From assembly GCA_015066845.1 (NCBI GenBank), contig SVNO01000022.1, positions 1-32,094 on the forward strand: DNA of 32,094 bases, in the 5' to 3' direction. Both the position numbers and the translations under genes were made by a program. Of the stretch, positions 4,752-30,852 are shown one piece after another (within the stretch, counting starts at the first letter, position 1; each line of letters starts with the position of its first letter). The notes beneath the pieces were generated by a model, which saw only the letters and a program-made list of their open reading frames with translations, was not told where the DNA came from and did not search any database. The DNA is from Ruminococcus sp. GTDB lineage: Bacteria > Bacillota > Clostridia > Oscillospirales > Ruminococcaceae.

Positions 4752-4768
4752 TGTATATCCTTTCTGAA

Positions 4769-11232: not shown

Positions 11233-12432
11233 TTATTCCCCCATCCTCTCCAGAATCTTTGCAAAAATCCGGTCGGCAGCTTCTTCCTTGGACATGCACG
11301 GCAGCTCCAGTGCACCGTCCGCTGTGATGAGCGTCAGGATGTTGGTGTCCGTGCCGAAGCCTGCACCTTCCTGCCGCAGGGAATTGGCACAAATCATGTC
11401 CGCATTCTTTTTCAAAAGCTTTTTCTGCGAATTTTCAAGCATATTCTCCGTTTCCATCGAGAATCCGCAAACGAACTGCCCCTCGCGCTTGTGTGCGCCC
11501 AGATGGGCAAGAATGTCCTGCGTTCTTGTCAGCGGAATGGACATTTCCCCATCGGATTTCTTGATTTTCTCCTGCGCCGTGACCGCTGGACGATAGTCCG
11601 CAACCGCTGCTGCCATGACGAAAATATCCTGCTCCTGCGCGTGTTCCGTTGCTGCCGCGAACATTTCCGCCGCGCTCTCCACCTGCACGACCTTGACAAA
11701 GGGCGGTGGTGTCAGTGCGCTTGCACCGGTGACAAGTGTTACCTGCGCACCGCGGAGCATTGCCATTTTTGCCAGTGCATAGCCCATTTTTCCGGTGGAA
11801 TGGTTGGTGATGAAGCGTACAGGGTCAATGCGCTCACGCGTTGCGCCTGCCGTGATGAGGACTTTTTTTCCGGCAAGCGTCTTTTCACAGGCAATCGCCT
11901 TTTCAATATATGACAGCAGTACTGCCTCCGAGGGCAGCTTGCCGTCCCCGATGTCACCGCAGGCAAGATAGCCGCAGTCGGGGGCAATGACCTCGAAGCC
12001 GTAGCCGGCAAGGGTTTTCAGGTTGTCCTGCACGATCGGGTTGCGGTACATGTTCGTGTTCATCGCCGGTGCAATAATTTTGTGGCACGGGCAGGCAAGG
12101 AGCGTGGTGGTGAGCATATCGTCCGCAATGCCGTGCGCTGCCTTGGCAATGACATTTGCTGTGGCAGGTGCAACCAGTACCACGTCCGCTCGCTTAGCAA
12201 TTGCCACATGCTCCACGCTGTACTGGAAATTCCGGTCGAACGTGTCAATCAGGCATTTGTTGCCTGTGAGCGTTTCAAAGGTCACAGGGCTGATGAACTG
12301 TGTAGCGTTCTCCGTCATGGTGACAATGACATCCGCGCCGGTTTTCTTCAATGTGCTCGCAAGTCCGGCAATCTTGTACGCGGCAATGCCGCCGGTTACG
12401 GCAAGGACAATGCATTTTCCTGTCAGATCCAT
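11233..12432 (-). CDS. coaBC: Bifunctional phosphopantothenoylcysteine decarboxylase/phosphopantothenate-cysteine ligase
   Basis: N-terminal flavoprotein VTGGIAAYK, PAMNTNMY; C-terminal ITAGATRERIDPVRFITNHSTGKMGYALA. Confidence 0.96.
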   Translation of the reverse strand: MDLTGKCIVLAVTGGIAAYKIAGLASTLKKTGADVIVTMTENATQFISPVTFETLTGNKCLIDTFDRNFQYSVEHVAIAKRADVVLVAPATANVIAKAAHGIADDMLTTTLLACPCHKIIAPAMNTNMYRNPIVQDNLKTLAGYGFEVIAPDCGYLACGDIGDGKLPSEAVLLSYIEKAIACEKTLAGKKVLITAGATRERIDPVRFITNHSTGKMGYALAKMAMLRGAQVTLVTGASALTPPPFVKVVQVESAAEMFAAATEHAQEQDIFVMAAAVADYRPAVTAQEKIKKSDGEMSIPLTRTQDILAHLGAHKREGQFVCGFSMETENMLENSQKKLLKKNADMICANSLRQEGAGFGTDTNILTLITADGALELPCMSKEEAADRIFAKILERMGE

Positions 12433-12434
12433 GG

Positions 12435-13205
12435 TCAGTTCCTCCTGTTTCGTTCGTAAATCATTCGCAATCCCTGTAAGAGCAAATCATCATCGCAGGT
12501 GATGGCATGGGTGCAGTGCGGTACAACGATATGGGAAAGTCCCCCCGTTGCCACGACCTGCGTTTCGTAGCCAAGCTCCTCCCAGATGCGGTCGATCATC
12601 CCATCCAGTGACGCTGCCGTACCATAGAGAATACCGCTGCGCAGACAGTCAGCAGTATTCCGGCCGACGACCTTTTCCGGCACAGTCAGCCCGATTTTCG
12701 GGAGCTTTGCTGCATGGGAAGTCAGCGAATCCAGAGAAATCCGTGCACCCGGCTGGATAATCGTACCCACATAATCTCCTTGCTTGTCGAGTACGGAAAA
12801 GGTGGTTGCCGTGCCCATGTCAATGACGATCACGGGCGTACCATAGAGCGCGGAAGCAGCAACGGCATCCACGATCAGGTCACTGCCGACTGCCGCCGGA
12901 TTGTCCATGCGCAGGCGCAGCCCCGTGTCCAGTTCCAGTCCCACCACCATGACGGCAGTTTCCGTGAGCTTGCCCAGTGCCGCACGGAGTACCGGAATCA
13001 GGGGCGGTACGACCGAGGAAATGATGATGCCGTCAAGTGATTGCGGCGAAATGCCGTAAAGCTCCAGAACCGACTGGAACATCACCGCATATTCAAGTTC
13101 CGTCTGGCGCAGGGACGTTGCCATGCGTTCTGTGAACAGGACACGTTCTCCCTCCAGACAGCCAAGGACAATGTTTGTGTTGCCCATGTCAATGGTCAGC
13201 AGCAT
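12435..13205 (-). CDS. coaX: Type III pantothenate kinase (copy 1)
   Basis: LLTIDMGNTNIVLGC, VIDMGTATTFSV, GRNTADCLRSGILYG. Confidence 0.9.
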   Translation of the reverse strand: MLLTIDMGNTNIVLGCLEGERVLFTERMATSLRQTELEYAVMFQSVLELYGISPQSLDGIIISSVVPPLIPVLRAALGKLTETAVMVVGLELDTGLRLRMDNPAAVGSDLIVDAVAASALYGTPVIVIDMGTATTFSVLDKQGDYVGTIIQPGARISLDSLTSHAAKLPKIGLTVPEKVVGRNTADCLRSGILYGTAASLDGMIDRIWEELGYETQVVATGGLSHIVVPHCTHAITCDDDLLLQGLRMIYERNRRN

Positions 13206-13987
13206 GGCGCATCCTCCTCCCTTAAAAAATCGTAGATAATCCGCAGACCGAGCAGCGGCAGCTCTGTATCCACAATAATATTGTGCCGACAGCAGGGAAT
13301 GACCGTCTGCGCAAGGTCGCCCGTGGCAACCAGTGCCGTGGATGCATAGCCGCGTTCTTTCCAGATGCGGTCGATCATTCCGTCGATTGCCGCAGCATTG
13401 CCGAAAATCACACCGCTGCGCATGGAATCGACCGTGTTCGTGCCGAGGACATGCGCCGGTCTTTGCAGGCTGATGCCCGGCAGCTGGGATGTACCCGATA
13501 CCAGAGAATGCAGTGACAATTCCACACCCGGCAGAATCGCACCGCCCAGATAGCAGCCGTACACATCCACAAGGGAGAGTGTCGTTGCTGTGCCAAATTG
13601 GATGACAATGACCGGTGCACCGTATTTTTCGTGCGCTGCCGTTGCGGTAATCACAAGGTCGCTTCCGGCTTGTTCGGGATTGTCAATGAGCAGCGGCACA
13701 TTGGCAGGCGTTGAACTGTCCGCCTTGAAAATGGGGATATCCGGTGCAATTTTTGCAAGTGCATCACGCAGCACCGTGGTCATTGACGGCACAACCGTGG
13801 AAATCACTGCGCCCTCAAGGGCGGACAGCGGTACATGGTGCAGGCGGAACACTGCCTTGAAAATGACAGCATATTCCAGTCCCGTCCTGTGTGTGTCCGT
13901 GGAAATGCGCTCGGTCAGCGCAAGACGTTCCCCATCATAGCATCCCAGAACCAGATGGGAATTGCCGACATCAATTGTGAGAATCAT
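13196..13987 (-). CDS. coaX: Type III pantothenate kinase paralog (copy 2), divergent in conserved motifs
   Basis: MILTIDVGNSHLVLGCYDG, VIQFGTATTLSLV, GTNTVDSMRSGVIFG; ATG at 13987 with AGGAAAGGGTG upstream; overlaps the start of copy 1. Confidence 0.83.
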   Translation of the reverse strand: MILTIDVGNSHLVLGCYDGERLALTERISTDTHRTGLEYAVIFKAVFRLHHVPLSALEGAVISTVVPSMTTVLRDALAKIAPDIPIFKADSSTPANVPLLIDNPEQAGSDLVITATAAHEKYGAPVIVIQFGTATTLSLVDVYGCYLGGAILPGVELSLHSLVSGTSQLPGISLQRPAHVLGTNTVDSMRSGVIFGNAAAIDGMIDRIWKERGYASTALVATGDLAQTVIPCCRHNIIVDTELPLLGLRIIYDFLREEDAPCC

Positions 13988-14006
13988 CAGAATCACCCTT
14001 TCCTGT

Positions 14007-14036
14007 AAACAAAACGGACTGCATCGTGCAGTCCGT
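14007..14036 (-). terminator. Terminator/attenuator between the ECF S-component gene and coaX
   Basis: Minus strand ACGGACTGCA-cga-TGCAGTCCGTTTTGTTT. Confidence 0.65.
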
Positions 14037-14045
14037 CAGTTTGCA

Positions 14046-14702
14046 TTATTCGCTTTTCAGCTCGATATGCAGCGGACGCAGCTTGCGCAGAATCGGGCAG
14101 ATCGCCGCTGTAATCAGGCAGGCTACAATTGCCTCCGGTACACCGTTTGCACCGATAACGCCCATAATCACGCCGTACAATGCTTCAAATTCGATCTCCT
14201 TTGCCGCAGCGTATGCTTCACCAAACAGCACATAGATGCCGCCCATGACAAGGATGGTATTGGTCAGAGAGCCGGCAAGACCGCCGATGATGTAGGAAAT
14301 TGCCTTCTTGTTCTTTGTCAGCTTATACACCAATGTGAATGCATAATATGCAGTCACGCCGATGAGGATACGCGGCAGGAAGCAGATGGCAAGGCTCTTG
14401 ATGGCAGCGAGGAAACCGTTTCCCTCCAGACCTGCGGACAGGAACGGGGAAAAGACGAAGGACACGACACTCGGTTTCAGCGTATTGTTCATCAGACTTG
14501 TCACGCCGAACATTGCTCCCAGAAACGCGCCTTTTTTCGGGCCGAGAAAGATCGCGCCGACAATCACCGGAATGTGGATGGTGGTTGCATTGATCACGCC
14601 AAGCGGAATGTAGCCGAGGTACGGAACAAACGCCAGCAAAAAGATGATTGCCGTAAACATGGCGGTCAATACAAAGCTTTGGGTTTTTTCTGTTGTGTTC
14701 AT
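14046..14702 (-). CDS. panT: ECF transporter S component, probably pantothenate-specific
   Basis: Multi-TM protein with ATTIHIPVIVGAIFLGPKKGAFLGAMFGVTSLMNN typical of the ECF S-component family; context with coaX/coaBC suggests pantothenate. Confidence 0.8.
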   Translation of the reverse strand: MNTTEKTQSFVLTAMFTAIIFLLAFVPYLGYIPLGVINATTIHIPVIVGAIFLGPKKGAFLGAMFGVTSLMNNTLKPSVVSFVFSPFLSAGLEGNGFLAAIKSLAICFLPRILIGVTAYYAFTLVYKLTKNKKAISYIIGGLAGSLTNTILVMGGIYVLFGEAYAAAKEIEFEALYGVIMGVIGANGVPEAIVACLITAAICPILRKLRPLHIELKSE

Positions 14703-15365: not shown

Positions 15366-15433
15366 TATGATACTGGAGTATTATGCTGTATTGTACTCAC
15401 TACTTTTACAGAAAAATTATTGGAGGTGGTCGA

Positions 15434-16630
15434 ATGAAGAGTTTTTCCTACGTTGCAAAAACCCCTGCAAACAAGCAGATAAAGGGTACAATCAACGCGG
15501 AGGATGAGAGAGAATTCAGTGCGAAGCTCAGAGAAAAGGGCTATACTCTCATCAGCTATGAGGAAAAAGAAATCGGCGCAAAGAAAACTGTGAAGAAGTT
15601 CAAGACCAAGGAGCTGGCATTTAACTGCCGTCAGCTTGCAGCAATGCTGACATCCGGTCTGACGCTGGTCAAAGCACTGGACATTTTGAGTAAGGAGCAG
15701 CCCAATGAGGCATCCAAGGCAGTCTGGCAGAGCGTGTATGAGAACGTGCAGAAGGGTGAATCCTTCTCCTCGTCCCTGGAAGCGTTCAAGGGCGTATTCC
15801 CTGACTTCCTGATCTCAATGGTATCCGCAGGTGAGTCCAGTGGTTCGCTTGATATTATTATGCAGCGAATGAGTGACCATTATGCAAAGGAAAACAAGAT
15901 GAACAATACCGTCAAGGGTGCGATGACCTATCCTATCATCCTCTTGATACTCTGTATTGCCATCGTTATCGGTATGTTTACCTTTATCATGCCGACGTTC
16001 GCAAATCTGTTTGAAAGCGAAGAAGATATGCCGCCTCTGACACGCGTCATGATGGGCTTCAGTGATTCGCTGGTAAACTACTGGTTCGTTTATCTTGGTG
16101 TCATTGTTGTAGTTGTATTTGCAATTATCTATGCATTGAAGCTCCCGAACACTCGTCTGAAATGGGACAAATTCATCATCAAGGGTCCGGCATTCGGCCC
16201 TCTGGTTGTCAAGATTTATACAGCACGTTTTGCAAGAACACTGGCTTCTCTGTACTCCAGCGGTATCCCGATGGTAGAGTGCCTGCAGCGTTCTTCTGCG
16301 ATTCTCGGCAACCGTTACATCAGCCAGTGCTTTGAAAATGTAGTCGATGAAGTAAAACAGGGTGAAACCTTGTCTGCGTCCATTACCAGAACGGAAATCT
16401 TCGACTCCATGTTCTGCTCCATTATCTACGTCGGTGAGGAAGCCGGTGCGCTGGATACCATCCTGCAAAAGACTTCCGACTACTACGATGAAGAAGCGGA
16501 CTCCGCAGTTGGACGACTCGTCAGCCTGCTCGAACCGGTTATGATTATCATCATGGGTATCGCTGTAGCTCTGGTCGTTGCATCTGTACTGCCTGCAATG
16601 TATGGCTCTTTCGAGGCTATCGCAGCATAA
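15434..16630 (+). CDS. pilC: Type II secretion/type IV pilus inner-membrane platform protein PilC
   Basis: GspF/PilC domains (FCRQLAAMLTSGLTLVKALDIL...ARFARTLASLYSSGIPMVECLQ...LLEPVMIIIMGIAVALVVASVLPAMY); GGAGGTGG RBS upstream of 15434. Confidence 0.94.
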   Translation: MKSFSYVAKTPANKQIKGTINAEDEREFSAKLREKGYTLISYEEKEIGAKKTVKKFKTKELAFNCRQLAAMLTSGLTLVKALDILSKEQPNEASKAVWQSVYENVQKGESFSSSLEAFKGVFPDFLISMVSAGESSGSLDIIMQRMSDHYAKENKMNNTVKGAMTYPIILLILCIAIVIGMFTFIMPTFANLFESEEDMPPLTRVMMGFSDSLVNYWFVYLGVIVVVVFAIIYALKLPNTRLKWDKFIIKGPAFGPLVVKIYTARFARTLASLYSSGIPMVECLQRSSAILGNRYISQCFENVVDEVKQGETLSASITRTEIFDSMFCSIIYVGEEAGALDTILQKTSDYYDEEADSAVGRLVSLLEPVMIIIMGIAVALVVASVLPAMYGSFEAIAA

Positions 16631-16663
16631 AACCAATTCAATTAACGAGAGGTGGAAAAGTAA

Positions 16664-18313
16664 ATGCTTTCATTTGATATTACCGATAGAAATATACGCA
16701 TTATCAGAGGTACTGAAAACGGCGGCAAGATTAGAATCAGTGCAGCCGCTAACCTCGACCTGGAGGAAGCAGTAATCGTCAATGGCCATGTTAACGATAT
16801 TAACCGCGTGGCTATGATGATCAATCAGGTATGTAAGCAGAACGGCATGACCGATAAAGAGGCCATCGTCTGCATCTCCTCCAACCAGACCGTGTTCAAG
16901 GAGCTTCTGATTCCTCCGAATCCGAAGGAGAGCGAGTTCCTCAAGAACGTTCGTCATGAGCTGCAGATGCAGATCAACGTCGATGACTCCTATGCAGTGG
17001 GCTACCTGAGTGTGGGCGAACTGGAAGAAAATGAGCATGGCGAAAAGGTACAGCGCATCCTTGCAACAGCATGTCCGTATGATGTGGTTGACTGCTACAA
17101 GCGTATCTTCAGTATGCTGGGCATCACCCTGAAGACCATCATGATTGGCTGTAACGCGATCACCAAGGTACTGCTTGCTGATGTAAAGGTAAAGAGCCTG
17201 ATGCCGCTGCTGGCTGTACAGATTGACAAGAACTTCATCTCTCTCAACCTGTACGAGAATAACCAGCTGTCCTTCTCCCGTTTCGCGTCCATCGATCCTG
17301 AGGACTACGAGAATCCGGACGACTATGTATTCGAGGCTGTGAACGAGAACATCTTCCGTATGATTCAGTTCGCAAGAAGCCGTGGCTCTGAAGCAATTTC
17401 CAACGTTGTATTCTATGGTGACATTAACGCATCTCCGAACCTCTACAACCGTCTGGTTGATGAGATGGAGAACAACGAAATCAGCGTAAGCCAGCTGAAC
17501 GTACCGCCGCAGATTCATGGTTATCAGAACCTCGAATTCTCCCTGTATGCTAACGCGATCGGTGCGATGTTCAAGCGTAACAAGATTACTGAACACGTTA
17601 ACCTGCTCGATGGCGATATCAGCAATGCATTGACCAATGCAATGAAGGCACGTCAGTCCGAGGGCGGCGTTCCGGTAGTACCGCTTATCTGTGCAGTACT
17701 GAGTGCAGTAGTTGTTCTGGGTTCATGGGGTTTCCTGACACTCAAGAATAACAGTGTAAAGAATGAAACCAAGAGATTGCAGGCAGAAATTGACAGCCCT
17801 GAAACAGCTGCAAAGCTGCAGCAGTATGAGGACCTGAAGGTACTCCGAGAGGAAGTCAAGAATTACCACACTCTCATTACAAACTCCAGCGAAGCATACA
17901 AGAGCCGTCCGGTTCTGGTTGAAGAGGCTTTTGTAGCAGTGGATGAGACACTCAAGCTGATGATGGAGCAGAATCCGGGTACACGCGAGGCGGCAGTTGT
18001 TGAACGCTGCGACTATGATAAGGGTGTTCTTGCTGTACCGATTGAAATTCTGACAGTGGATGAATTCTCCCAGAAGTATCCGACAATGGTTGTAGATCAT
18101 CTCTATAATGAGTATGGCGATCTGTTTGGCGAAGTAGAATATGTTGGTTATACTGTAGATGAAGTAACAGTGATTGAAGGTGAAACTGCAGCACCGGGTG
18201 CGCGTGATGGTAAGGAAATTCATTTCTCACTGCTTCTGAACTTGCAGCAGAATGAAAAGCCGGATCTCGACAGAGATGCAGTGGAGGAATCCACTGAGGA
18301 AGCAGCAAGCTAA
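16664..18313 (+). CDS. pilM: PilM-like actin-fold protein with C-terminal PilN-like TM/coiled-coil segment (apparent fusion)
   Basis: N-terminal LSFDITDRNIRIIRG, LLIPPNPKESEFLKNVRHEL; C-terminal TM VPLICAVLSAVVVLGSWGFLTL followed by coiled coil and periplasmic-type domain. Confidence 0.82.
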   Translation: MLSFDITDRNIRIIRGTENGGKIRISAAANLDLEEAVIVNGHVNDINRVAMMINQVCKQNGMTDKEAIVCISSNQTVFKELLIPPNPKESEFLKNVRHELQMQINVDDSYAVGYLSVGELEENEHGEKVQRILATACPYDVVDCYKRIFSMLGITLKTIMIGCNAITKVLLADVKVKSLMPLLAVQIDKNFISLNLYENNQLSFSRFASIDPEDYENPDDYVFEAVNENIFRMIQFARSRGSEAISNVVFYGDINASPNLYNRLVDEMENNEISVSQLNVPPQIHGYQNLEFSLYANAIGAMFKRNKITEHVNLLDGDISNALTNAMKARQSEGGVPVVPLICAVLSAVVVLGSWGFLTLKNNSVKNETKRLQAEIDSPETAAKLQQYEDLKVLREEVKNYHTLITNSSEAYKSRPVLVEEAFVAVDETLKLMMEQNPGTREAAVVERCDYDKGVLAVPIEILTVDEFSQKYPTMVVDHLYNEYGDLFGEVEYVGYTVDEVTVIEGETAAPGARDGKEIHFSLLLNLQQNEKPDLDRDAVEESTEEAAS

Positions 18314-18328
18314 AGGAGGGTGAACACA

Positions 18329-19141
18329 ATGAAAATGGAAATGAGTTATCGCGATAAAATCATTCTTATCGTACTGTTTATTATTCTGATTCTGGTAGGC
18401 GGCTTCTTTGCACTGATCAGACCGAAGTACAAGGAACTCAAGGTAAGTAAAGAGGCACTGGAAGTTGTAAGAACAGAGTGGGAAGGCATCGAGAAGAAGT
18501 TCGAACAGATCCCGATTATCCAGAAGGCTATCACAAAGAATTACGAGGAAGCAAAAAAAGAAGCAAAGGTATTTGAGAATACTGCATTTGTTTCTGCAAA
18601 CGAATCCTGGACACATGAAAAGTCCAGCTATGAGATTGACGAATATCTCCAGTCAGCCATTGATGAGTGTGAACTGAAGGTAGAAGCATTCACGCTTGAT
18701 GAGGTTGACTCTGAGGAAATGTCCTACTACTTCATCGAACCCGATGTTGTAACACATTCTCTGCTGGAAGCTGCGGATGTGAACGGCAACCATGCTGAAA
18801 AGGTTGCAAAAATCATGAAGGAAAATACAGTACTGAACGAGCGTCAGGTTGCAGAGGTAATGGTTCAGAATCTTCAGCTGACTGTAAACTGCAAGAGAGA
18901 AAACCTGATGAAGTTCCTCGCGAAGATTGACGAAGACAATAATGCGGTTCTGGTAACTACAGTGAACATTGAGAACTATCAGTTCGACGAGAGTGAATCT
19001 CCTTCCGCAGGTGGTGCAGGTGATGAGGCAGCTGTGATTCAGAAGGTTGAACCGAACACTGGCACATCCAGAGTAATCATCAATATCAGCTTCTATAGCG
19101 CAGTTCCGATTGACGAGCCTGATCTTGGTGAAATCGCATAA
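18329..19141 (+). CDS. pilO: PilO-like type IV pilus assembly protein
   Basis: N-terminal TM (IILIVLFIILILVGGFFALIRPKYKEL), coiled coil, position after pilM/N; AGGAGGG RBS. Confidence 0.72.
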   Translation: MKMEMSYRDKIILIVLFIILILVGGFFALIRPKYKELKVSKEALEVVRTEWEGIEKKFEQIPIIQKAITKNYEEAKKEAKVFENTAFVSANESWTHEKSSYEIDEYLQSAIDECELKVEAFTLDEVDSEEMSYYFIEPDVVTHSLLEAADVNGNHAEKVAKIMKENTVLNERQVAEVMVQNLQLTVNCKRENLMKFLAKIDEDNNAVLVTTVNIENYQFDESESPSAGGAGDEAAVIQKVEPNTGTSRVIINISFYSAVPIDEPDLGEIA

Positions 19142-19191: not shown

Positions 19192-21948
19192 ATGATGAAG
19201 GATAACAAAAGTACTCCGAAGGTAAAGGGTACCGTTTTGTACACTGTTGTTTCCGTGCTCATGGTGCTCATCGTTTTTCTGATGGGCACGCTGGCACTTG
19301 CAGCAACAGCAAACAGACGGTCTTACACCAATTACCAAAAAGAACAGACCGAGTACACCGCAAGACTGCTGCTTGATTCCGTTGTTAAGACAATTGAAGA
19401 TGACACCACCACGACAGGTATCCGTCAACAGATGGTAAATGGACTGACCTCCGTAGGCAGTTCCATGACGGTAACGGTTACACTGGAGGGTGTGGACCAC
19501 GATGTAGAAATCACCAATGTCGGCGAAAAGACATTGTATGATGAAGCAAGAACACAGTGGGTAACCGGTGATGTCTATGAAGTTGCTGCGGTCAACAGCA
19601 AGCTGTTGGCAGATACAACATTCTGTGCATACATCGTAGGTGAGCACGAAGTTACCAGAAGAAGCAATGGCGGCGGCGGTGCGTTCGTCTCCATGGGTGA
19701 CCTCGGCGGAAGCGAAATCGGTACCGGTGGTTACATCACTGGCGGTACTTATGTCGGTGTAGGCGAGGCAGAGCATGACTATGAGCTCGGTTACATGGGT
19801 GAAACCATTATGGATGCGCCGTTCTTTGCAAAGGGCAATGTTAATGCAGAAAACGAAGTGTTCTTCCACTTCACAAAGCCCGGCGACTCCTTTATTGTAA
19901 CAGGCAATTACACAGCAAATAACGCAGGTGGTCTGATTCCGGTTTTTGACGGATTCCAGTGGGATCCCACACTCACAGACCAGTCCTACGAACAGCTGCC
20001 GTACATTTTTATCGGCGGCACATTCAAGGTGGATTCTCAGTACAAGAGAGTCAACAATTTCAACCCCTTCGGTGAACCCGATTATGCAGTAAACCTCTAC
20101 TGCGGCAACATTGATGTTCACAGCGATGTCGGCTTGAACCTCTATGGTGACCTGTATACCTTTGAGTCAGGTACAGAAAACAAACTCGGCAGTAACGGTG
20201 CAGACAGTAAACTGTATAAGTGGACTGCAAAGACACTGCAGAAGAAGGATTCTACTACCACTGAGCTTGGTAACTGGTACTCCATGGGTGCTGTCAGACT
20301 CAGCGGCAACAGAGATATTGTTATTGAAGGCGACCTTCGCGTAGACAATGACATTTATATTGAAGGCAATTGCAAGCTCAATGTACAGGGCAACATCGTA
20401 TGCGGTGGTACACTGTATAACAGCAGCAATAATGTCATTGCAACAGGAATTTATGCAAGCGACATCAGTAATAGCGGCAAAATCGAGTGCAGACGTTCTG
20501 TCCATTCCTTTGCAGCGGATATCGGAAATGTTGTATGCGCTACTCCCTATGTGCCGCACACACCGAGTGCTGCCGACATTGTCGGTGCGAAGAGAGTGTG
20601 GTATGATGATTTTGTAATTCGTACTGATGCGGCAGCGCAGAATTGTGAGTATTCCTATAATGAGTATGTAGACCTTCTTGGTGCTATTACTACCATACCC
20701 AAAACTGGTATGATTTACACCGGTGGTTATGATCCGGCATCCGGTCAGACATTTGAGGAGTTCTTCGAGGCAACTGTGCCGGAATTCCATGAAGTCATGG
20801 AAAAGAGTCGCAACAGCGGCGAAGCAAATGCAACAGTGGAAAACCTCTACAGCATTGCTGGAGTGTATGGCGACATTTATCCGCCTGACTTCACAAGACA
20901 GAAGCTGCTCGACCCCGCAAACGGCATTGTAAAACAGCCGGAAGCAGCGGATTATGAGAATGTATACCCGACCAAGATTTCTGAGCTTGGCCCGAACGTT
21001 TACGATTCGACAACCGGTACACTGAAGATCCCGACGTACAACGAAGCTAATCTGGCAAGCATGAAGAAGAATATTCCGGGCGGCAACACACAGGATGAAT
21101 GGTTTGAAATTACTACCTCCTGCGAGCTGACTGGTACGTTCAACGACAACATCTACATTAAGCCCAACGGCAACCCGATTACCGTTATCCTGAACAATGT
21201 AAGAATGAGTCAGGACGGCGGCGGCGGTAAGACGCAGATCATCATTGACGATGAGAGCCAGGTAACACTCTTTATCAGAGGTACTACCAAGATTGACAGT
21301 GGTTTCATCGTTACCGCAGATTGGATGGACGCTATCTATGGCGATACCCATACATTGGCACCCAGACCCGGCAGACCGGGTAACCCCGGACATGGCAGAG
21401 GCGGCGGATGGTTTGCAGGTACAAGAGCATCCAGCACACTTCCCATGGCAGCTGATGTGACAACTGTCAGACAGAATGCATCCGTAACAGACTGGTTCTA
21501 TCCGAACGTTATCATTTATGGTGAAGAAAATTCTGTTCTCGATATGTCCACGAACAACTCTCTGGTAACTGCACATGTCCGTGCACCTGAGATGAAGTTC
21601 CTGCAGAAGATGGGTATGCAGCTCGGTAATAAGATTGAGTACATCGGTACCGGCACCATGATTTATGGACCGGGCGGCAGCTATTCCGCAGACGCAAATT
21701 CGCTGGGCGTTGTTGGTCAGCTTATCGCTGGTCAGATCGTAATGGACAACAACCAGAAGTGGGGTATGCTTTACGTTACCGATGGCGGTGCAGGCGCATC
21801 TTGCAGCTGTGGTTGTCCGCGTTGTAACGTGACAAGTCCGAGTACTTGTGCATGTAATTGTGGCACTCCGGGCTGTATCTGTACCGGTGCTACGCCTTCC
21901 GGTTCTATTCCGGCAAGATTCACCACATTGTATTATAACTACTACTAA
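19192..21948 (+). CDS. Very large pilus-associated protein, PilX-like N-terminus, Gly-rich segments and Cys-rich C-terminal tail
   Basis: N-terminal TM VLYTVVSVLMVLIVFLMGTLALAATANRRSYTNYQKEQTEYTARLLLDSVV; beta-repeat-like middle; tail GASCSCGCPRCNVTSPSTCACNCGTPGCICTG; sits inside the pil operon. Confidence 0.78.
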   Translation: MMKDNKSTPKVKGTVLYTVVSVLMVLIVFLMGTLALAATANRRSYTNYQKEQTEYTARLLLDSVVKTIEDDTTTTGIRQQMVNGLTSVGSSMTVTVTLEGVDHDVEITNVGEKTLYDEARTQWVTGDVYEVAAVNSKLLADTTFCAYIVGEHEVTRRSNGGGGAFVSMGDLGGSEIGTGGYITGGTYVGVGEAEHDYELGYMGETIMDAPFFAKGNVNAENEVFFHFTKPGDSFIVTGNYTANNAGGLIPVFDGFQWDPTLTDQSYEQLPYIFIGGTFKVDSQYKRVNNFNPFGEPDYAVNLYCGNIDVHSDVGLNLYGDLYTFESGTENKLGSNGADSKLYKWTAKTLQKKDSTTTELGNWYSMGAVRLSGNRDIVIEGDLRVDNDIYIEGNCKLNVQGNIVCGGTLYNSSNNVIATGIYASDISNSGKIECRRSVHSFAADIGNVVCATPYVPHTPSAADIVGAKRVWYDDFVIRTDAAAQNCEYSYNEYVDLLGAITTIPKTGMIYTGGYDPASGQTFEEFFEATVPEFHEVMEKSRNSGEANATVENLYSIAGVYGDIYPPDFTRQKLLDPANGIVKQPEAADYENVYPTKISELGPNVYDSTTGTLKIPTYNEANLASMKKNIPGGNTQDEWFEITTSCELTGTFNDNIYIKPNGNPITVILNNVRMSQDGGGGKTQIIIDDESQVTLFIRGTTKIDSGFIVTADWMDAIYGDTHTLAPRPGRPGNPGHGRGGGWFAGTRASSTLPMAADVTTVRQNASVTDWFYPNVIIYGEENSVLDMSTNNSLVTAHVRAPEMKFLQKMGMQLGNKIEYIGTGTMIYGPGGSYSADANSLGVVGQLIAGQIVMDNNQKWGMLYVTDGGAGASCSCGCPRCNVTSPSTCACNCGTPGCICTGATPSGSIPARFTTLYYNYY

Positions 21949-21965
21949 TGAGAGGAGTGCTGTTT

Positions 21966-22397
21966 ATGAAAAAACTGAAGAAAAAACGCGTAAAGGGCAT
22001 GACTCTGATTGAGGTCATCATTTCTCTGGCGATTTTCACCGTTCTCACTGCCATGATGGTAGAAGTAGGTTCGGTGACAAAATCCCTGATGATGTCCACC
22101 AATCACCTGACAAACAAAACAACAGCAGAATCTCCCATCGGTGCTGTGCGCGATGTTACAGGATTGCAGGATGCTGCGAAAACTGTTGTTGTTGACCCCG
22201 CTGATGCTGCGCAGGTGGACGCTGCAATGGGTAAGACGGACCTTACGGTTACTGTCACATCCCGCGGCTACACGAATGATGTTGCAGTAACACGCTATTC
22301 CACAGGTGCGGCTGCACAAATGGCAACAGCAAACGGCACAAATTGTGATACCTCCAAGCATATGAACGGCGATCTCGTGTTCTATGATATCCACTAA
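21966..22397 (+). CDS. Type IV prepilin (PilV/GspI-like minor pilin)
   Basis: Prepilin motif KKKRVKG/MTLIEVIISLAIFTVLTAMMVEV; GAGGAG RBS. Confidence 0.85.
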   Translation: MKKLKKKRVKGMTLIEVIISLAIFTVLTAMMVEVGSVTKSLMMSTNHLTNKTTAESPIGAVRDVTGLQDAAKTVVVDPADAAQVDAAMGKTDLTVTVTSRGYTNDVAVTRYSTGAAAQMATANGTNCDTSKHMNGDLVFYDIH

Positions 22398-22412
22398 GTA
22401 AGGAGGATTCAC

Positions 22413-23378
22413 ATGAAAAAAAGAGTTAAGGGTTTTACCCTGATTGAATTGATTGTTGTAATGGCAGTCTTTGCTATCATCATGTTCGGCGCACTGCAAT
22501 TGATCCCGTCAGTGCTGAAAATGATGGTGCAGGCGGATGTCCATGAGGGAGGAAATGCTGCTGTCAGCAGTATTTCCAACTACCTCGAAAGTGAGCTGTC
22601 CACGGCTGAATACCTGTATGCGACTGATACAATGCCTGTAATCAATGACAAGGGCGGCAATGAGCTTGAGCTTGCTGACAAGAGCATGGTAAAGGAATTT
22701 GTTGAACGCTTCTATGAGGGTGTTCTGAAGGATGGCGCAAGACCGGCATCTCCGCAGTACGGTAACGGTAAGGTGCATGTCCTTCTCATTGACAACAATA
22801 ACAATGGTAGAATCAGCGAGATCGTATACAGAGTCAGTGACTTTGGCATTGGTGTTACCGATGCAGATATTGTATATGAATCTTCCTCCATGTACGCAGT
22901 GAACAAGGCATATTATGATACCTATCAGTTTGAAATTCTTTGCGGAACTTATGACGAGAGTGGTTTTGATTTGACAGACCCTGTTGATTATCAGAATTTC
23001 GTGAACAGTCTTTCCAATAAGAACACTGCATTCAGCATTCGTGCAACAACAAACAGAAACAATACAGACTATTCCTTTGTAACAAATTCCACAATGTCAC
23101 TCGTTAACCTCTATAACAACCGTGCGTCTGGCGGCGTTCCCACTGGCACATACTATGTTGTGACTGAGGAAACAGAGGGCGGTTCAATTGTACCGTATAT
23201 TGTAGATATCAGCAAAGGTTATGGTGTAGCCCAGACCGTTACCAGCTATGACACTGTACATACCAATTCCCGTAAGTACGGTAAGCTGACGGAGGGCAAA
23301 ATCATCAACTATGTGGGCGGTACAAATGACGGCTACTGCTTCATCTATAGTTATGGTTCTGAAATCGAAACAGACTAA
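22413..23378 (+). CDS. Type IV prepilin-like protein (PilW/GspJ-like)
   Basis: MKKRVKG/FTLIELIVVMAVFAIIMFGALQL class III signal peptide. Confidence 0.87.
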   Translation: MKKRVKGFTLIELIVVMAVFAIIMFGALQLIPSVLKMMVQADVHEGGNAAVSSISNYLESELSTAEYLYATDTMPVINDKGGNELELADKSMVKEFVERFYEGVLKDGARPASPQYGNGKVHVLLIDNNNNGRISEIVYRVSDFGIGVTDADIVYESSSMYAVNKAYYDTYQFEILCGTYDESGFDLTDPVDYQNFVNSLSNKNTAFSIRATTNRNNTDYSFVTNSTMSLVNLYNNRASGGVPTGTYYVVTEETEGGSIVPYIVDISKGYGVAQTVTSYDTVHTNSRKYGKLTEGKIINYVGGTNDGYCFIYSYGSEIETD

Positions 23379-23388
23379 GTAAAAAAAT

Positions 23389-23421
23389 CGGCAGTCGGAA
23401 GGATTGCTCCCGACTGCCGGA
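23389..23421. terminator. Bidirectional terminator between the prepilin gene and pilD
   Basis: AAAAAAATCGGCAGTCGG...CCGACTGCCGGATTTT. Confidence 0.8.
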
Positions 23422-23430
23422 TTTTACAAG

Positions 23431-24270
23431 CTATTCCATGACAACTACTGCGTAGGGGTCATATGTCAGCAGTTCTATGTACCACTCCATGACTGCCTCT
23501 CCGAACAGTGTTCCGAGGAACAGTCCCATTGCAAGATACGGGCCGAATGCGAAGATGGATTCGCCGCTGCGGTACTTGCTGATGACACCGCCGACTGCTG
23601 CGAGCAGGATGCCGAAGAATGCGGAAATGCAAACCGCCTTCCATCCGATCAACGCACCGCTGACAGCCATCAGAATGGTATCGCCCAGCTCAATGCCACG
23701 AATGCGTTCACCGGTTTTCGCCTTCTTGTAGACGGCAACGATCTCACCAATGAGGAAGAACGGTACACTGATGCAGACAAGCCCAATCAGACGATCCGGC
23801 AGGCTGACAGCTTCCGTGAAAATTGCATCCGGTACAGCAAGTACCAGAATGAGTGCGAGCATCCCAAGGTCCATCCACTGCTTGTCGTAGTCGATAAACC
23901 CGACGCAGATGAGAATGGAAAAGAAGATGCAGCAGAGAATGGAATGCAGATTGAAGTCGAGCACGGCAAAGGTGACCACATAAATGATACCGTTGAGTGC
24001 CTCAACGATGGGGTAACGCGGCGAGATTTTCTGACCGCAGCTGTGACACTTTCCTCTGAGAAAGAGCCAGCTGAAAATCGGTACCAGGTCGCGGAACCGG
24101 ATTTTTGCACCGCAGCTCATACAGTGCGATGACCGTTTGATCAGGGATTCATTTTCGGGCAGTCTGTAAATGACAACATTTAAAAAACTGCCGATACAAA
24201 TACCATAGAAAAAAACGATCGGGTAGAACATCAGGTAAAAACCAATGTCCATGAATTCATTGTGCAGCAT
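23431..24270 (-). CDS. pilD: Prepilin peptidase / N-methyltransferase (A24)
   Basis: GSFLNVVIYRLP, two CxxC pairs (CMSCGAKIRFRDLVPIFSWLFLRGKCHSCG), GFIDYD, GIELGDTILM. Confidence 0.94.
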   Translation of the reverse strand: MLHNEFMDIGFYLMFYPIVFFYGICIGSFLNVVIYRLPENESLIKRSSHCMSCGAKIRFRDLVPIFSWLFLRGKCHSCGQKISPRYPIVEALNGIIYVVTFAVLDFNLHSILCCIFFSILICVGFIDYDKQWMDLGMLALILVLAVPDAIFTEAVSLPDRLIGLVCISVPFFLIGEIVAVYKKAKTGERIRGIELGDTILMAVSGALIGWKAVCISAFFGILLAAVGGVISKYRSGESIFAFGPYLAMGLFLGTLFGEAVMEWYIELLTYDPYAVVVME

Positions 24271-24334: not shown

Positions 24335-24364
24335 GTAGAATTTTTATGTATGGAGGTTATCATA

Positions 24365-26035
24365 ATGAGAAACATTCGAATCGGTGATTATCTTGTAGAA
24401 CAGAAGTTAATCACACCTGAGCAGCTCGACAAGGTTCTGGCAGCGCAGAAGGAATCACAGGGCTCCAAGCGTTTCGGCGACATGGTTGTGGAGATGGGCT
24501 TCATTTCTGAAGTACGTCTGGCACAGGCACTTGCCGGCAAGCTGAGAGTACCCTATGTGGACCTTGGCAACATTGAAATTGATGAAGAAGCAGTTCGTAA
24601 GATTCCGGAAAATCTTGCGAAGAAGTACACTGTTATCGCCATCAATATTCAGGGCAGAAGACTGACAGTTGCAACGGATGACCCGATCAACTTCAACATT
24701 CTTGAGGATATCAAGATGCAGACCGGTATGGACACCATTCCGGTACTGGCGACCAAGACTGCCATCAACAAGGCAATTGGTCAGCTGTATTCCATGGAGA
24801 ATGTTGACAGCGTACTTGAGAGTGTATCGCAGTACGGTTCTGTAGAAGCAGAGGATGAAGAATCCCGTGACCGTGTTGAGAGTGCGCCGATCGTAAAGCT
24901 GGCTACAACCATCATCGAAAACTCCTACCGTGCAGAGGCAACCGATATTCATATCGAGCCGTTCAAGACCTATACCAGAATCCGTATCCGTGTAAACGGC
25001 GACCTGGTAGAGCTGATGAATGTCTCGAATGTTGTACATAACGCACTGACCACACGTCTGAAGCTGATTTCCGGCATGAACATCGCTGAAAAGCGTATCC
25101 CGCAGGACGGTCGTTTCACACAGGTTGTAGATGGTACAACACTTGACGTCCGTGTATCCTCCCTGCCGACAGTAAACGGCGAAAAGATCGTAATTCGTAT
25201 TCTGTCCACCGGTCAGATCGCACTGCGTAAGATTACTGACCTGGGTATGTCCGATTATAACTACCAGCTCTTTGAATCCATGATTAAGTGCCCGCATGGC
25301 GTTATTCTGGTAACTGGTCCTACCGGTTCCGGTAAAACGACCACACTGTATGCGGCTCTTGGTGAAATTGCAAAGCCCCATGTAAACGTTATCACCGTTG
25401 AAGACCCTGTCGAAAAAGCAATCGACGGCATCAATCAGGTACAGGTTAACTCCAAGGCAGGTATGACCTTCGCAGCTGCTCTGCGTTCCATCCTCCGTCA
25501 GGACCCTGATATCGTAATGATCGGTGAGATGCGTGACTCTGAGACTGCGGATATCGGTATCCGTGCCGCTATCACAGGTCACTTGGTACTCTCCACACTG
25601 CATACAAACGACGCAGCTTCCACCATCGTCCGTCTGGTTGACATGGGCGTTGCTCCTTACATGGTAGCAACTTCTCTGATCGGCGTTATCGCACAGCGAC
25701 TCGTTAAGGTACTGTGCCCGAAGTGCAAGAAGCAGCGTATGTCCAATGAAGAAGAAAATGGTCTGATGAAGATCGCAACCTCTGTTCCGGTATGCGAAGC
25801 TGTTGGCTGCTCCGAGTGCAACAACACCGGCTACCGCGGCAGAACTGCGATTCATGAAATCATCCACTGTACATCCGGTATTTCCACCATCGTTGCAAGA
25901 AACGGCAGCAAGGAGGAAATCGAGGAGCAGGCAAAGAAGAACGGCACAAAGCTTCTGCGTGACAACGTTTCCGAGCTGGTACAGAAGGGTGTTACTTCCA
26001 TGGATGAGCTGGTTCGTGTAACCTACGCTGTATAA
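24365..26035 (+). CDS. pilB: Type IV pilus assembly ATPase PilB
   Basis: N-terminal T2SSE domain, Walker A GPTGSGKTTTLYAAL, VEDPVEKAIDGINQVQVN, tetracysteine CPKCKKQ...CSECNNTGYRGR; GGAGG RBS. Confidence 0.95.
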   Translation: MRNIRIGDYLVEQKLITPEQLDKVLAAQKESQGSKRFGDMVVEMGFISEVRLAQALAGKLRVPYVDLGNIEIDEEAVRKIPENLAKKYTVIAINIQGRRLTVATDDPINFNILEDIKMQTGMDTIPVLATKTAINKAIGQLYSMENVDSVLESVSQYGSVEAEDEESRDRVESAPIVKLATTIIENSYRAEATDIHIEPFKTYTRIRIRVNGDLVELMNVSNVVHNALTTRLKLISGMNIAEKRIPQDGRFTQVVDGTTLDVRVSSLPTVNGEKIVIRILSTGQIALRKITDLGMSDYNYQLFESMIKCPHGVILVTGPTGSGKTTTLYAALGEIAKPHVNVITVEDPVEKAIDGINQVQVNSKAGMTFAAALRSILRQDPDIVMIGEMRDSETADIGIRAAITGHLVLSTLHTNDAASTIVRLVDMGVAPYMVATSLIGVIAQRLVKVLCPKCKKQRMSNEEENGLMKIATSVPVCEAVGCSECNNTGYRGRTAIHEIIHCTSGISTIVARNGSKEEIEEQAKKNGTKLLRDNVSELVQKGVTSMDELVRVTYAV

Positions 26036-26097
26036 GAAAAGGTATCGCATTCCTGCGTAAGGAAGCGACAATATAGATTTGACAGGAGGAACTATCA

Positions 26098-27165
26098 ATG
26101 ACAATTGATATTAATCGTATTCTGAACGAAGCGCGTGTAATCGGCTGTTCGGACTTGCATTTCACATACGGCATCACCCCCATTGTCCGTCTGAACGGTA
26201 TGCTGCGTAAGATGAGCAAATATCCGGAAATGGATGAAGAAACCATCATGGATATTGCCAATCAGATGACAAGCGAGCAGCAGATGGCAAGCATTCGTAT
26301 GCACAAGGACACAGACTTTTCTTTCCAAAGCTCCTCTGGCTATCGTCACCGTGTTAACGTGTACTTCCAGAGAGGCAAGACGGCGATTGCGATCCGTCTG
26401 CTCCGTAACGATATCCCGACACTGGAAGACCTGAGCCTGCCGCCGGTTCTCGCGGATTTCGCAATGCGTCCTCGTGGTCTGGTGCTCATCACTGGCCCTA
26501 CCGGTTCTGGTAAGTCCACCACACTGGCTGGTATGCTGGACTTCATCAACGTAAACAGAAGTGCGCACATCATCACCATCGAAGACCCGATTGAGTATGT
26601 GCACCAGCATAAGCTCTGTATGATCAACCAGAGAGAAGTTGGCGACGACGTTCCGGACTTTGCGTCCGCACTTCGTGCCGCACTTCGTGAAGACCCCGAC
26701 GTAATCCTCGTAGGTGAAATGCGTGACTTTGAAACCATCACCGCTGCGGTAACTGCCGCTGAAACCGGTCACTTGGTTCTTTCCACCCTGCATACCACCT
26801 CCGCAGCTGATACCATCAACCGTATCATCGACGTATATCCGGAGCATCAGCAGGGTCAGATTCGTACACAGCTGGCAAATACACTGGTTGGTGTCGTATC
26901 CCAGACACTGCTTCCGAAGCGTGACGGCAGCGGACGAATTGCCGCAATGGAAATTCTCTCTGTAACTGACGCTTGTGCAGCGATGATTCGTGATGATAAG
27001 GTACACCTCCTGCTGTCTGCAATCCAGTCCGGTAAGCAGCACGGCATGATGTGTCTTGACCAGGAGCTTGCGCGTATGGTAAAGCGCGGTATCGTTTCCG
27101 AACCGGATGCCATCGACAAGTGCCAGAGCAAGCAGGAATTCTACCGCTATCTCAATGGTCAGTAA
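26098..27165 (+). CDS. pilT: Type IV pilus retraction ATPase PilT
   Basis: GPTGSGKSTTLAGMLDFIN, EDPIEYVHQHKLCMINQREVG, GEMRDFETI, AAETGHLVLSTLHTTSAADTINRIIDVYP. Confidence 0.95.
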   Translation: MTIDINRILNEARVIGCSDLHFTYGITPIVRLNGMLRKMSKYPEMDEETIMDIANQMTSEQQMASIRMHKDTDFSFQSSSGYRHRVNVYFQRGKTAIAIRLLRNDIPTLEDLSLPPVLADFAMRPRGLVLITGPTGSGKSTTLAGMLDFINVNRSAHIITIEDPIEYVHQHKLCMINQREVGDDVPDFASALRAALREDPDVILVGEMRDFETITAAVTAAETGHLVLSTLHTTSAADTINRIIDVYPEHQQGQIRTQLANTLVGVVSQTLLPKRDGSGRIAAMEILSVTDACAAMIRDDKVHLLLSAIQSGKQHGMMCLDQELARMVKRGIVSEPDAIDKCQSKQEFYRYLNGQ

Positions 27166-27424: not shown

Positions 27425-29386
27425 ATGAAACACATGACGAACAAACACCTGAAGCGCAAAATCAGTGCTGCATTGGCAGCTTGCTGCATGACCGTATCTG
27501 CTGTAATCCCGACGACTGCTATGCTGTCTGCAAACGCAGCATACAGCACCGGCACTTATACCGTTTCTGGACAGAGTGCGAACATCCGTGAAACTCCCGG
27601 TGATAGTATTCTGGGCTACGCAGTGAAAGGCTCTACCTTCACCGTATCGAAAATTGACGATAGCTGGGGTTATTCCGACAGTATTCCGGCAACCAACGGC
27701 AAAAAGATCGCAGGCTGGATTTTCCTTGAAAACTGTGCACTGACCTCCACACCGTCCGATACCGGTACAAGTGCATCCTATGCTGTGGGCAGCAAAGTGC
27801 AGATCGCAAACACAAGCGAAGTTAACTTCCGTACAGGCGCGTCCACAAGCTACAGCAAAATCGGCACAATTCCGCGCGGCACAGTTCTGACCGTTATGGA
27901 AGTTTCCGGCGCATGGCTGCGTGTGAACTACAACGGCAAGGACGGCTGGTTCAAGTCCACATACTGCAAGGCATATGTGGAAACAACTGTGACCACGACC
28001 GTTGCCAAGGTGGGCGATAAGGTAGAGGTTGCCAATACCGACAATGTGAACTTCCGCACCGGCGCAGGCACGGGCTATGCACTGCTCGGCACGATTCCGC
28101 GCGGCACAGTTTTGACCGTTTCCGAGGTATCCGGCAAGTGGTTCCGCGTCAACTACAATGGCAAGGACGGCTGGTTCTCCTCCGATTATGCGAAGAAGTA
28201 CACAGAACCCGTACAGCCGAACGTTCCGAACACCAACAATGTTGCCGCAGTCGGCGATAAGGTGGAAATTACCAACACCGATGTGGTAAACTTCCGCAGC
28301 GGCGCAGGTACGACCTACAGCAAAATCGGCACGATTCCGCGCGGTACAGTCCTGACTGTACTGGAAATTTCCGGCAACTGGTTCCGCGTAACCTATAACA
28401 ACCAGAATGGTTGGTTCAGTTCCGGTTACTGTAAGAAGTATGTGGAACAGACGCAGGAACCGACCACCAACTATGCAAAGGTTGGTGAAAAGGTAAAGGT
28501 AACTGCTCCGAATGCAGTCAATATGCGCAGCGGCGCAGGCACGGGACATGCACTGCTCGGCACTATCCCGCGTGATGCAGTGCTGACAGTTGAGGAAGTG
28601 ACAGCAGATGGCTGGTACAGAGTGACCTATGAGGGCACAACTGGTTGGTTCACTTCCCGTTATGCAGAGAAGTACACCGAAACCACACCTGCTCCCTCAC
28701 AGCCCTCCACTCCCTCCGGTACAATTGCAGCCGGCACAAAAGTGAAAATCAATGCAGCCGTAGCAGTCAACCTGCGTACAGGTGCGTCTACATCCTACAA
28801 GGTACTGGGCACTATTCCGAGAGGCGCAGTTGTTACCGTTCTCGAAGCTTCCAACGGCTGGTTCAGAACCGAGTACAACGGCAAAACTGGTTGGTTTGTA
28901 TCCCAGTATTGCGAGAAATATGAGGAACAGTCCCCCACACCGTCCACTCCCTCCACAGAGCAGGGCTTCAAGGTGAATGACAAGGTGAAGATCGTTGCTC
29001 CCAGCTCCGTAAACCTCCGTTCCGGCGTAGGTACGGAATTTGTACCGGTTGACGTTATCCCCAATGGTACATCTCTGGTTGTTGAGGAAGTCGTAACTGA
29101 CTGGGTACGCGTGACCTATGCAGGCAAGACTGGTTGGATTATGTCCCGTTATGTGGTAAAGCAGGATACCGAAATCAATGAATCCGTTCCTGCTGCCGGT
29201 AAGGTCACTGTCAGCGCGGCAGTATCCGTTACCCTGCGTAAGGAACCGACCGCTTCTTCCGCAGCCATCGGATGGATCAAGGGCGGCACAGTATTGCAGT
29301 ATTCCGAAATTTCCAATGGTTGGTACAAGGTTGTGTACAATGGCAAGACCGGTTGGATTTCCGGACGCTATGCAAAAGTAAACTGA
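27425..29386 (+). CDS. Secreted protein of about eight bacterial SH3 domains
   Basis: Signal peptide then repeats of the type VNFRTGASTSYSKIGTIPRGTVLTVMEVSGAWLRVNYNGKDGWFKSTYC. Confidence 0.92.
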   Translation: MKHMTNKHLKRKISAALAACCMTVSAVIPTTAMLSANAAYSTGTYTVSGQSANIRETPGDSILGYAVKGSTFTVSKIDDSWGYSDSIPATNGKKIAGWIFLENCALTSTPSDTGTSASYAVGSKVQIANTSEVNFRTGASTSYSKIGTIPRGTVLTVMEVSGAWLRVNYNGKDGWFKSTYCKAYVETTVTTTVAKVGDKVEVANTDNVNFRTGAGTGYALLGTIPRGTVLTVSEVSGKWFRVNYNGKDGWFSSDYAKKYTEPVQPNVPNTNNVAAVGDKVEITNTDVVNFRSGAGTTYSKIGTIPRGTVLTVLEISGNWFRVTYNNQNGWFSSGYCKKYVEQTQEPTTNYAKVGEKVKVTAPNAVNMRSGAGTGHALLGTIPRDAVLTVEEVTADGWYRVTYEGTTGWFTSRYAEKYTETTPAPSQPSTPSGTIAAGTKVKINAAVAVNLRTGASTSYKVLGTIPRGAVVTVLEASNGWFRTEYNGKTGWFVSQYCEKYEEQSPTPSTPSTEQGFKVNDKVKIVAPSSVNLRSGVGTEFVPVDVIPNGTSLVVEEVVTDWVRVTYAGKTGWIMSRYVVKQDTEINESVPAAGKVTVSAAVSVTLRKEPTASSAAIGWIKGGTVLQYSEISNGWYKVVYNGKTGWISGRYAKVN

Positions 29387-29394
29387 TTTTTCCA

Positions 29395-29426
29395 ACGCTC
29401 CGCAGATTGCTGCGGAGCGTTTTTTT
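29395..29426 (+). terminator. Intrinsic terminator
   Basis: ACGCTCCGCAG-attg-CTGCGGAGCGTTTTTTT. Confidence 0.9.
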
Positions 29427-29596
29427 CGCTGTATTCCTGCGAAAATTTGTCCTATTAAGAAAGATGCGTTAACAGAATTGTAATAGATTACTACGGTAAA
29501 GTGCACAAATTTCAAGAACGGAATTGTATAATATTTCCAATTTTAGTGCATTTGGAGGGTGAAAATGCCACGAAACGTAGAAAATATGAATACTCC

Positions 29597-29625
29597 TTGA
29601 CAAAATGATTGCGGAGGTGTATAAT
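29597..29625 (+). promoter_or_regulatory. Consensus promoter for the SH3/amidase-like protein
   Basis: TTGACA (29597-29602), 17-nt spacer, TATAAT (29620-29625). Confidence 0.83.
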
Positions 29626-29790
29626 AAACTTAAGGCAATATTGTACAGACATTGTACTATATGTCGAAAAATAGTTGTACAAACCCATGGACATTTTTTG
29701 TGCAGCTTGCTAAGATACTGTAATGAAGAGGCAGATTAAGTGGGGAACGCAGTGTCTGAAAAGAAACTTTACAAGAGGGAGAATACCAAG

Positions 29791-30852
29791 ATGAACAAGA
29801 CACTGACGATGCGTTACGCATTGGCAGCTTTTTTTGCTGCCGCCATTTTTCTGTTGGGTTTCTGCGCACCTGTGCGCGCGTCTGCTTATAGCACGGCGAC
29901 CTATGTTGTGGACTGCTGCAGTCTTGTAGTCCGTGACAGTGCCGGCGGCGATGCGGTCGGGTATGCGTGTGAGGGAACGGACTTCTATGCTTCAAAGGTC
30001 AGCGGCGACTGGCTGTACACAGAGAGTATTGCAGGTACAAGCGGCAAGACCATTTCCGGCTGGATTTATGCACCGCTTTGCGCAAGCTCCAACGGTTCTG
30101 CATCCACAGGTTCAACGTCTGCAAGCAGTTCCACAGCAGCCTACACGGCATCCACAGGCAGCCGTGTGACGGTGACTGCGCCGGTTTCCGTGACCATGCG
30201 CAAGAGTGCGACAGCGGAATCCGATGCGATCGACTGGATCAACAATGGCGTAACACTGAACGTTCTGGCAAGCTCCAACGGTTTTTATCAGGTAAGCTAT
30301 GACGGAAAAACCGGCTGGATTTCCTCGAAATATGCTGCGGCATCCGGCAGCACATCCAAGCCTGTACTGAATGCCTCAGTCAGCACACCCAAGCCGAATG
30401 CAGGTGCAGCTGCAAGCTCCTCCGAGGTCAAGGGAACGCTGAATTTCTGGGCAGCCTACAATTATGCAGAGAAGTACTGCTATACGTCGAATCCGGCGTA
30501 TCGTTATTACGAGGACAACAACTGCATGACTTACATCAGCCAGATTCTGGTAGCCGGTGGTCTGCCGGAAACGGAAGAATTCCGTGACGAGAGCTTTCCT
30601 TTTGTACGCGTTGCAGAATTTGGACCGTACATGAAGCGTACCTACGGCATTGACCGTCTGGAGTATCCGTCCATCAGCTGGATCGAACCGGGTGATTGTG
30701 TTCTGACAAATGACTGCGGACATATCATGTGGGTAACGAGTGTGGAAAACGGCAGGGTATATACCTGCGCGAATACCAACGACCGCTGGGCTTATAACCT
30801 GAGCGTTGATGCGATCGACGCAGTGATCAAGACTTCCGATTTGTTTGCCTGA
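29791..30852 (+). CDS. Secreted protein with two SH3 domains and a C-terminal Amidase_6-like (Cys/His/Asn) domain
   Basis: Start MNKTLTMRYALAAFFAAAIFLLGF with GAGGGAG RBS; SH3 modules; NYAEKYCYTSNPAYRYYEDNNCMTYISQILVAGGLPE...CGHIMWVTSVENGRVYTCANTNDRW. Confidence 0.83.
   Translation: MNKTLTMRYALAAFFAAAIFLLGFCAPVRASAYSTATYVVDCCSLVVRDSAGGDAVGYACEGTDFYASKVSGDWLYTESIAGTSGKTISGWIYAPLCASSNGSASTGSTSASSSTAAYTASTGSRVTVTAPVSVTMRKSATAESDAIDWINNGVTLNVLASSNGFYQVSYDGKTGWISSKYAAASGSTSKPVLNASVSTPKPNAGAAASSSEVKGTLNFWAAYNYAEKYCYTSNPAYRYYEDNNCMTYISQILVAGGLPETEEFRDESFPFVRVAEFGPYMKRTYGIDRLEYPSISWIEPGDCVLTNDCGHIMWVTSVENGRVYTCANTNDRWAYNLSVDAIDAVIKTSDLFA

Follow-up and report, generated by a model that had tools for sequence, protein, structure and literature searches.

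How do Gram-positive gut bacteria attach to plant fibre with their type IV pili? Pili have been linked to cellulose adhesion in Ruminococcus albus and Ruminococcus flavefaciens (PMC3672088), and the binding component of monoderm type IV pili is not established (PMC6916266). The locus described here encodes a giant, cysteine-bearing protein among pilus genes. Here, we analyzed the window, a 32,094-nucleotide stretch of DNA from Ruminococcus sp. that forms part of a 2.2 Mb draft assembly.

Pilus operon and class of the giant protein

The type IV pilus operon in the window is complete. It runs in the order pilC, pilM/N, a pilO-like gene (18320-19141), the giant pilX-like gene, two N_methyl prepilin genes, convergent pilD, pilB, and pilT, with coordinates listed in Table 1. 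An earlier note on this DNA had put a protein of ~919 amino acids between pilO and the prepilins; the place is correct, and translation gives 918 amino acids. An in-frame GTG lies at 19183, but the MMK start is common to most relatives. Within the genus (Ruminococcus, herbivore gut), the protein was found in 34 of 37 genomes. At the level of the family, 32 of 149 genomes, in 25 of the 124 genera sampled, encode PilX-like relatives. The named relatives were assembled from metagenomes and bear the labels Ruminococcus, Oscillospiraceae, or Clostridia; their sources include rumen, caecum, and the gut of rabbits or sheep.

Table 1. Position and supporting evidence for features of the pilus locus
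Feature	Position	Strand	Basis
pilC, pilM/N, pilO-like upstream machinery	15383..19141	+	Pfam and synteny
PilX-like giant protein, candidate minor pilin, 918 aa	19192..21948	+	Orthologues in 34/37 genus genomes, same operon position; AF2 model
Prepilin-type start K-G|TVLYT and alpha1 helix, residues 12-70; conserved 5' edge of putatively exchanged cassette	19225..19401	+	Alignment, model, sister pairs
Putatively exchanged tip-pilin cassette, approximate edges	19310..23430	+	Position transferred from sister-pair comparisons
Pilin-like beta-sheet, residues 91-151	19462..19644	+	Four modelled strands 91-98, 101-117, 122-137, 140-151
Bactofilin-like beta-solenoid stretch, residues 374-433	20311..20490	+	PF04519 E=0.0019, under curated cut-off
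Variable linker site, residues 863-910	21778..21921	+	Cysteine cluster in the window, low-complexity sequence in most relatives; disordered in model
Cys module CSCGCPRCNVTSPSTCACNCGTPGCIC, residues 871-897, 9 Cys	21802..21882	+	Alignable in 7 species
Conserved C-terminal aromatic strand TTLYYNYY, residues 911-918	21922..21945	+	Modelled strand 910-917
pilin1, GspI/ComGE-like prepilin with GMTLIE, second cassette member	21948..22397	+	N_methyl PF07963; partial gspI/ComGE matches
pilin2, GspJ-like prepilin with GFTLIE, third cassette member	22413..23378	+	N_methyl PF07963; partial gspJ match
pilD prepilin peptidase, convergent, conserved 3' cassette edge	23431..24270	-	PF06750 and PF01478; synteny; sister-pair breakpoints
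pilB and pilT ATPases	24350..27165	+	T2SSE; 82-97% identity across most of genus

Several other genes of the window were also annotated. On the 3' side of pilT, positions 27425-30852 (plus strand) encode one protein with seven SH3_3 repeats and one with SH3 and Amidase_6 domains; the part of this downstream region that was examined contained no recognisable major pilin gene. Near the operon, three successive genes (275-4790, minus strand) encode secreted proteins bearing type I dockerin domains, which fits a fibre-degrading, cellulosome-type lifestyle. Positions 11233-14702 (minus strand) carry a coenzyme A gene cluster in which the kinase is duplicated, with CoaBC, an ECF transporter S component, and two adjoining type III pantothenate kinases (12435-13205 and 13196-13996). 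An AAA_21 ATPase with an AbiEii-type annotation (8382-9539, minus strand) adjoins an unmatched open reading frame (7607-8482), and the two are perhaps a defence or toxin-antitoxin pair.

The PilX-like N-terminus that the earlier note had recognised in this operon is clearly present. Pilins of the PilX/GspK/ComGG type lack Glu5, and position 5 of the mature giant pilin is likewise Thr, not Glu. Across 35 sequences, K12, G13, T14, V15, L16, and T18 are invariant, and Glu5 is absent from all 35. The prepilin peptidase start leads into a hydrophobic alpha1 helix that spans residues 14-70 in the AF2 model, and the gene adjoins two Glu5-bearing minor prepilins as well as pilC/M/O/D/B/T machinery. 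No curated PilX/GspK-type family model matched above its cut-off, sub-threshold matches being the only ones, and nine relatives gave partial N-terminal matches to ComGG (ComGG_2). The protein is best read as a non-canonical PilX/GspK-like modular minor pilin, one that would work like this class rather than a curated member of it. It differs from PilX/GspK/ComGG-type minor pilins in being several times larger, with a predicted beta-solenoid ectodomain and a variable linker before the C-terminal strand.

The N-terminus also resembles that of the tapirins, a family of cellulose-binding proteins. The NCBIfam tapirin model matches residues 9-58 with E=3e-4, and 9 of 35 relatives have partial N-terminal matches (best 3.4e-6). 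The tapirins of Caldicellulosiruptor, a fibre-degrading clostridial relative, are likewise large secreted proteins with a similar N-terminal helix. However, the window's match to NF051896 is confined to the N-terminal helix and scores 19.2 bits, where a full-length match would exceed the 600-bit cut-off. No similarity was seen past the N-terminus, and no tapirin structure appeared in the portion of the Foldseek PDB list shown. We consider membership of this family highly improbable and rejected it.

Predicted ectodomain fold and variable linker site

The AF2 model of the giant protein, built on an alignment of 35 sequences, has a pLDDT of 79 and a pTM of 0.69. It predicts a long beta-rich body after the pilin-like sheet. 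A match to Bactofilin (PF04519) scored 18.8 bits, under the gathering threshold of 27.9, and served only as a sign of a beta-solenoid; similar sub-threshold matches occur in 9 of 35 relatives (best 2.7e-6). Relatives also gave single matches to DUF7305, FapA, and Hexapep, and from these families together we read the body as a beta-solenoid. A Foldseek search of the PDB with the model returned nothing at E <= 0.001, and its three best weak matches, to a PL6 lyase, an autotransporter passenger, and a tailspike, are all with known beta-helix proteins. The model and the solenoid-family matches thus agree with the beta-rich middle described in the earlier note. The Gly/Pro/Arg stretch RPGRPGNPGHGRGGG that it mentioned is present as well, roughly at residues 730-748, which are modelled as disordered. 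A phage origin of the protein was considered and rejected, as there was no match among phage records.

Near the C-terminus, the earlier note had counted ten cysteines in about 30 residues. The dense cluster is real, and the count is nine in 27 residues, with every Cys in CxC or CxxC spacing. When the 17 cysteines were shuffled over the protein in 200,000 trials, the maximum was 8 per 27-residue stretch; the analytic bound for at least 9 is 7e-8. A cluster lies at the same site in seven species, including that of the window, with the alignable order CxC(G)CxxC...CxC. Because it is alignable in six congeneric orthologues, and given the outcome of the shuffling, we exclude chance and the frameshift-type artefact, absent from orthologues, that the earlier note had raised as a concern. 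Assembly artefact is rejected on the same alignments. A tandem DNA repeat as the source was rejected since none was found in the underlying DNA. The cluster also has no Pfam or PDB match, which rejects a known Cys-rich family; the earlier note knew of no described pilus protein with this tail.

The cluster is not the C-terminal tail it was taken for. It lies between WGMLYV, the last solenoid strand, and LYYNYY in the conserved C-terminal strand. Among orthologues read to their ends, most carry polyQ, PT, NP, EG, polyD, GS, or PGGT repeats at this site, one divergent clade has a short spacer, and the length of the site ranges from ~19 to 61 residues. From these alignments, the cluster is one of several alternative fillings of a length-variable linker. 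Since most orthologues have low-complexity sequence here, the cysteines are not required for pilus assembly in general. The presence of the cluster takes 5 changes to explain on the pilX tree and 6 on the machinery tree. A profile search of 38 genus genomes found no second copy of the module, a search of 394 genomes of the order found none besides the window itself, and the strongest family matches, read through to the C-terminus, showed none beyond the genus.

In the AF2 model, residues 867-904 have pLDDT below 50 and are disordered, and the Cys segment stays unordered when the C-terminal part (555-918) is modelled alone. The last strand, residues 910-917, has a pLDDT of about 83 in the full model and of 30-40 with residues 555-918 alone. 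This loss of confidence suggests a partner for the strand within residues 1-554, and we infer that it docks on the pilin-like sheet of the N-terminal half.

Incongruence of the putative tip-pilin cassette

Compared with the window across most of the genus, PilB and PilT are 82-97% identical, and the giant protein is 25-36% identical. In four pairs of sister genomes, DNA identity collapses just past the alpha1 helix, at about +76 to +158 bp counted from the KGTV codon, and returns next to pilD at about +3880 to +4440 bp. A fifth sister pair keeps its similarity almost throughout. One pair comprises a genome with the Cys cluster (L031) and one without (L037); between them, pilB and pilT are 100% identical, pilC 99%, pilO 93%, and pilD 95%, and identity is 90% over pilX residues 1-60, 34% in the ectodomain, 47% in pilin1, and 46% in pilin2. 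Over 378 pairs, ectodomain identity correlated with that of pilin1 (rho 0.58) and pilin2 (rho 0.67) but not with that of pilM/N (rho -0.09). Furthermore, six members that form one divergent pilX clade are dispersed over the machinery tree, where the AU test rejects them as a clade (p = 6.6e-6); the trees come from quick searches and carry SH-aLRT support only.

The genus genomes compared all appear to be metagenome-assembled, and the breakpoints could in principle be assembly chimeras, but four independent pairs agree. No obvious GC shift marks the cassette, whose edges in the window itself are placed by position only. In five genomes (G008, G011, G025, G032, and G033), pilX matches are spread over two contigs or stop inside pilX at contig ends, a pattern that would be compatible with a population carrying several cassette alleles.

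The incongruence indicates that the ectodomain and the next two prepilin genes form a ~4 kb cassette that would be exchanged between close relatives while the assembly machinery stays. Co-exchange suggests that the three minor pilins belong to one complex. GspI-GspJ-GspK is a known complex, and by analogy the giant pilin, pilin1, and pilin2 would probably sit at the pilus tip as a complex of this type. An outer part swapped together with two partners, with the machinery fixed, points to the specificity-determining part of the pilus. The large beta-solenoid ectodomain would probably be displayed there as an adhesin, perhaps towards plant fibre in gut Ruminococcus.

Possible role of the cysteines and comparison with known systems

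Of the metal, disulfide, and adhesin-element options that the earlier note offered, we prefer metal binding to a disulfide knot, since a search of the genus turned up no dedicated thiol-oxidising enzymes. VKOR, Thioredoxin_4, DsbA, and DsbB (PF07884, PF13462, PF01323, and PF02600) were each absent from all 38 genus genomes, where controls were found, so that the host has no recognisable oxidative folding pathway of the Dsb type. The CxC/CxxC spacing adds to the preference for a reduced linker, as does the tendency of obligate anaerobes to exclude Cys from exported proteins (PMC12453122). Against the metal reading, no metal-binding homologue was found, and the module is disordered in the model. 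Metallothioneins share a short segment dense in CxC/CxxC, but here the segment is an extracellular linker within a pilin, and none of the seven tails had any Pfam match at E up to 1. Overall, neither the metal nor the disulfide reading is backed by a sequence family. That the linker stays reduced and binds metal is a tentative proposal, to which we give slightly less than an even chance.

A disulfide-bonded knot could stiffen the linker or proof it against proteases. The segment is extracellular and Cys-dense, its spacing aligns across seven species, and Cys-rich disulfide proteins such as CdeC are known in clostridia (PMC12453122). Disulfides are also possible without the enzymes we searched for, for example through small thiols or SdbA-like enzymes (PMC12453122). 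Set against this are the missing enzymes, the scarcity of exported Cys, and the odd number of cysteines (nine) in the window's cluster, which we counted in favor of metal. CxC spacing is, moreover, unusual in native disulfides. We regard a knot as unlikely.

Neutral low-complexity drift, leaving a functionless Cys-rich linker, would agree with a site that tolerates nearly any composition and a length of about 19-61 residues, and cysteines that alternate with inert linkers may lack a specific function. However, the order of the cysteines aligns across seven divergent proteins, no tandem repeat lies beneath the cluster, and Cys elsewhere makes up 0.6-1.5% of most exported window proteins checked. 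Drift is improbable as well. It is quite unlikely that the Cys segment is itself adhesive, using its thiols or a bound metal to contact substrate or host protein. The segment, flexible and exposed to solvent in the model, lies on a fast-diversifying ectodomain, but most orthologues have polyQ, PT, EG, or polyD in its place, and a module that is on or off between sister species cannot be a general adhesive principle. Modification to thiazoles (TOMM-like) before export is extremely improbable: one member matches heterocycloanthracin (TIGR03601, E=0.008), but YcaO is absent from the 38 genus genomes, where controls were found.

In the picture we propose, the chain would run from alpha1 through the pilin-like sheet into the solenoid and back through the flexible linker to the C-terminal aromatic strand docked on the N-terminal half. 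The Cys cluster would be an interchangeable linker filling, most likely reduced and folding round Zn or Fe as a compact clasp. For the whole picture of a modular tip minor pilin acting as an adhesin, with a metal-clasp linker and an exchanged cassette, we estimate a probability of roughly 0.5. Allelic exchange of a whole tip complex between fixed alpha1 and pilD edges, combined with a metallothionein-like extracellular metal clasp in one allele class and no recognisable disulfide pathway, is possible rather than probable. A Cys-rich linker would be an unusual surface element in anaerobes, which tend to keep cysteines out of exported proteins (PMC12453122).

The R. flavefaciens 007 pil cluster (PMC3672088) likewise has pilF(C), pilM, two pseudopilin genes, pilD, pilB, and pilT together. 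Its pil3 and pil4, given there at the position downstream of pilT that matches 27425-30852, are absent from the window; the pilin Pil3 was up 19-fold on cellulose. That cluster also contains OrfX, and our guess is that this is the counterpart of the giant pilX-like gene. Myxococcota PilY1, diverse at its N-terminus (PMC13190605), is similarly a tip protein with a conserved anchor, a diversified outer part, and lineage-specific Cys enrichment, but it belongs to another family and its cysteines are proposed to form disulfides. Streptococcus sanguinis PilB and PilC (PMC6916266) are also minor pilins over 50 kDa with a bulky domain suspected of adhesion; theirs consist of vWA and lectin modules, whereas here a solenoid seems to be inserted before the last strand.
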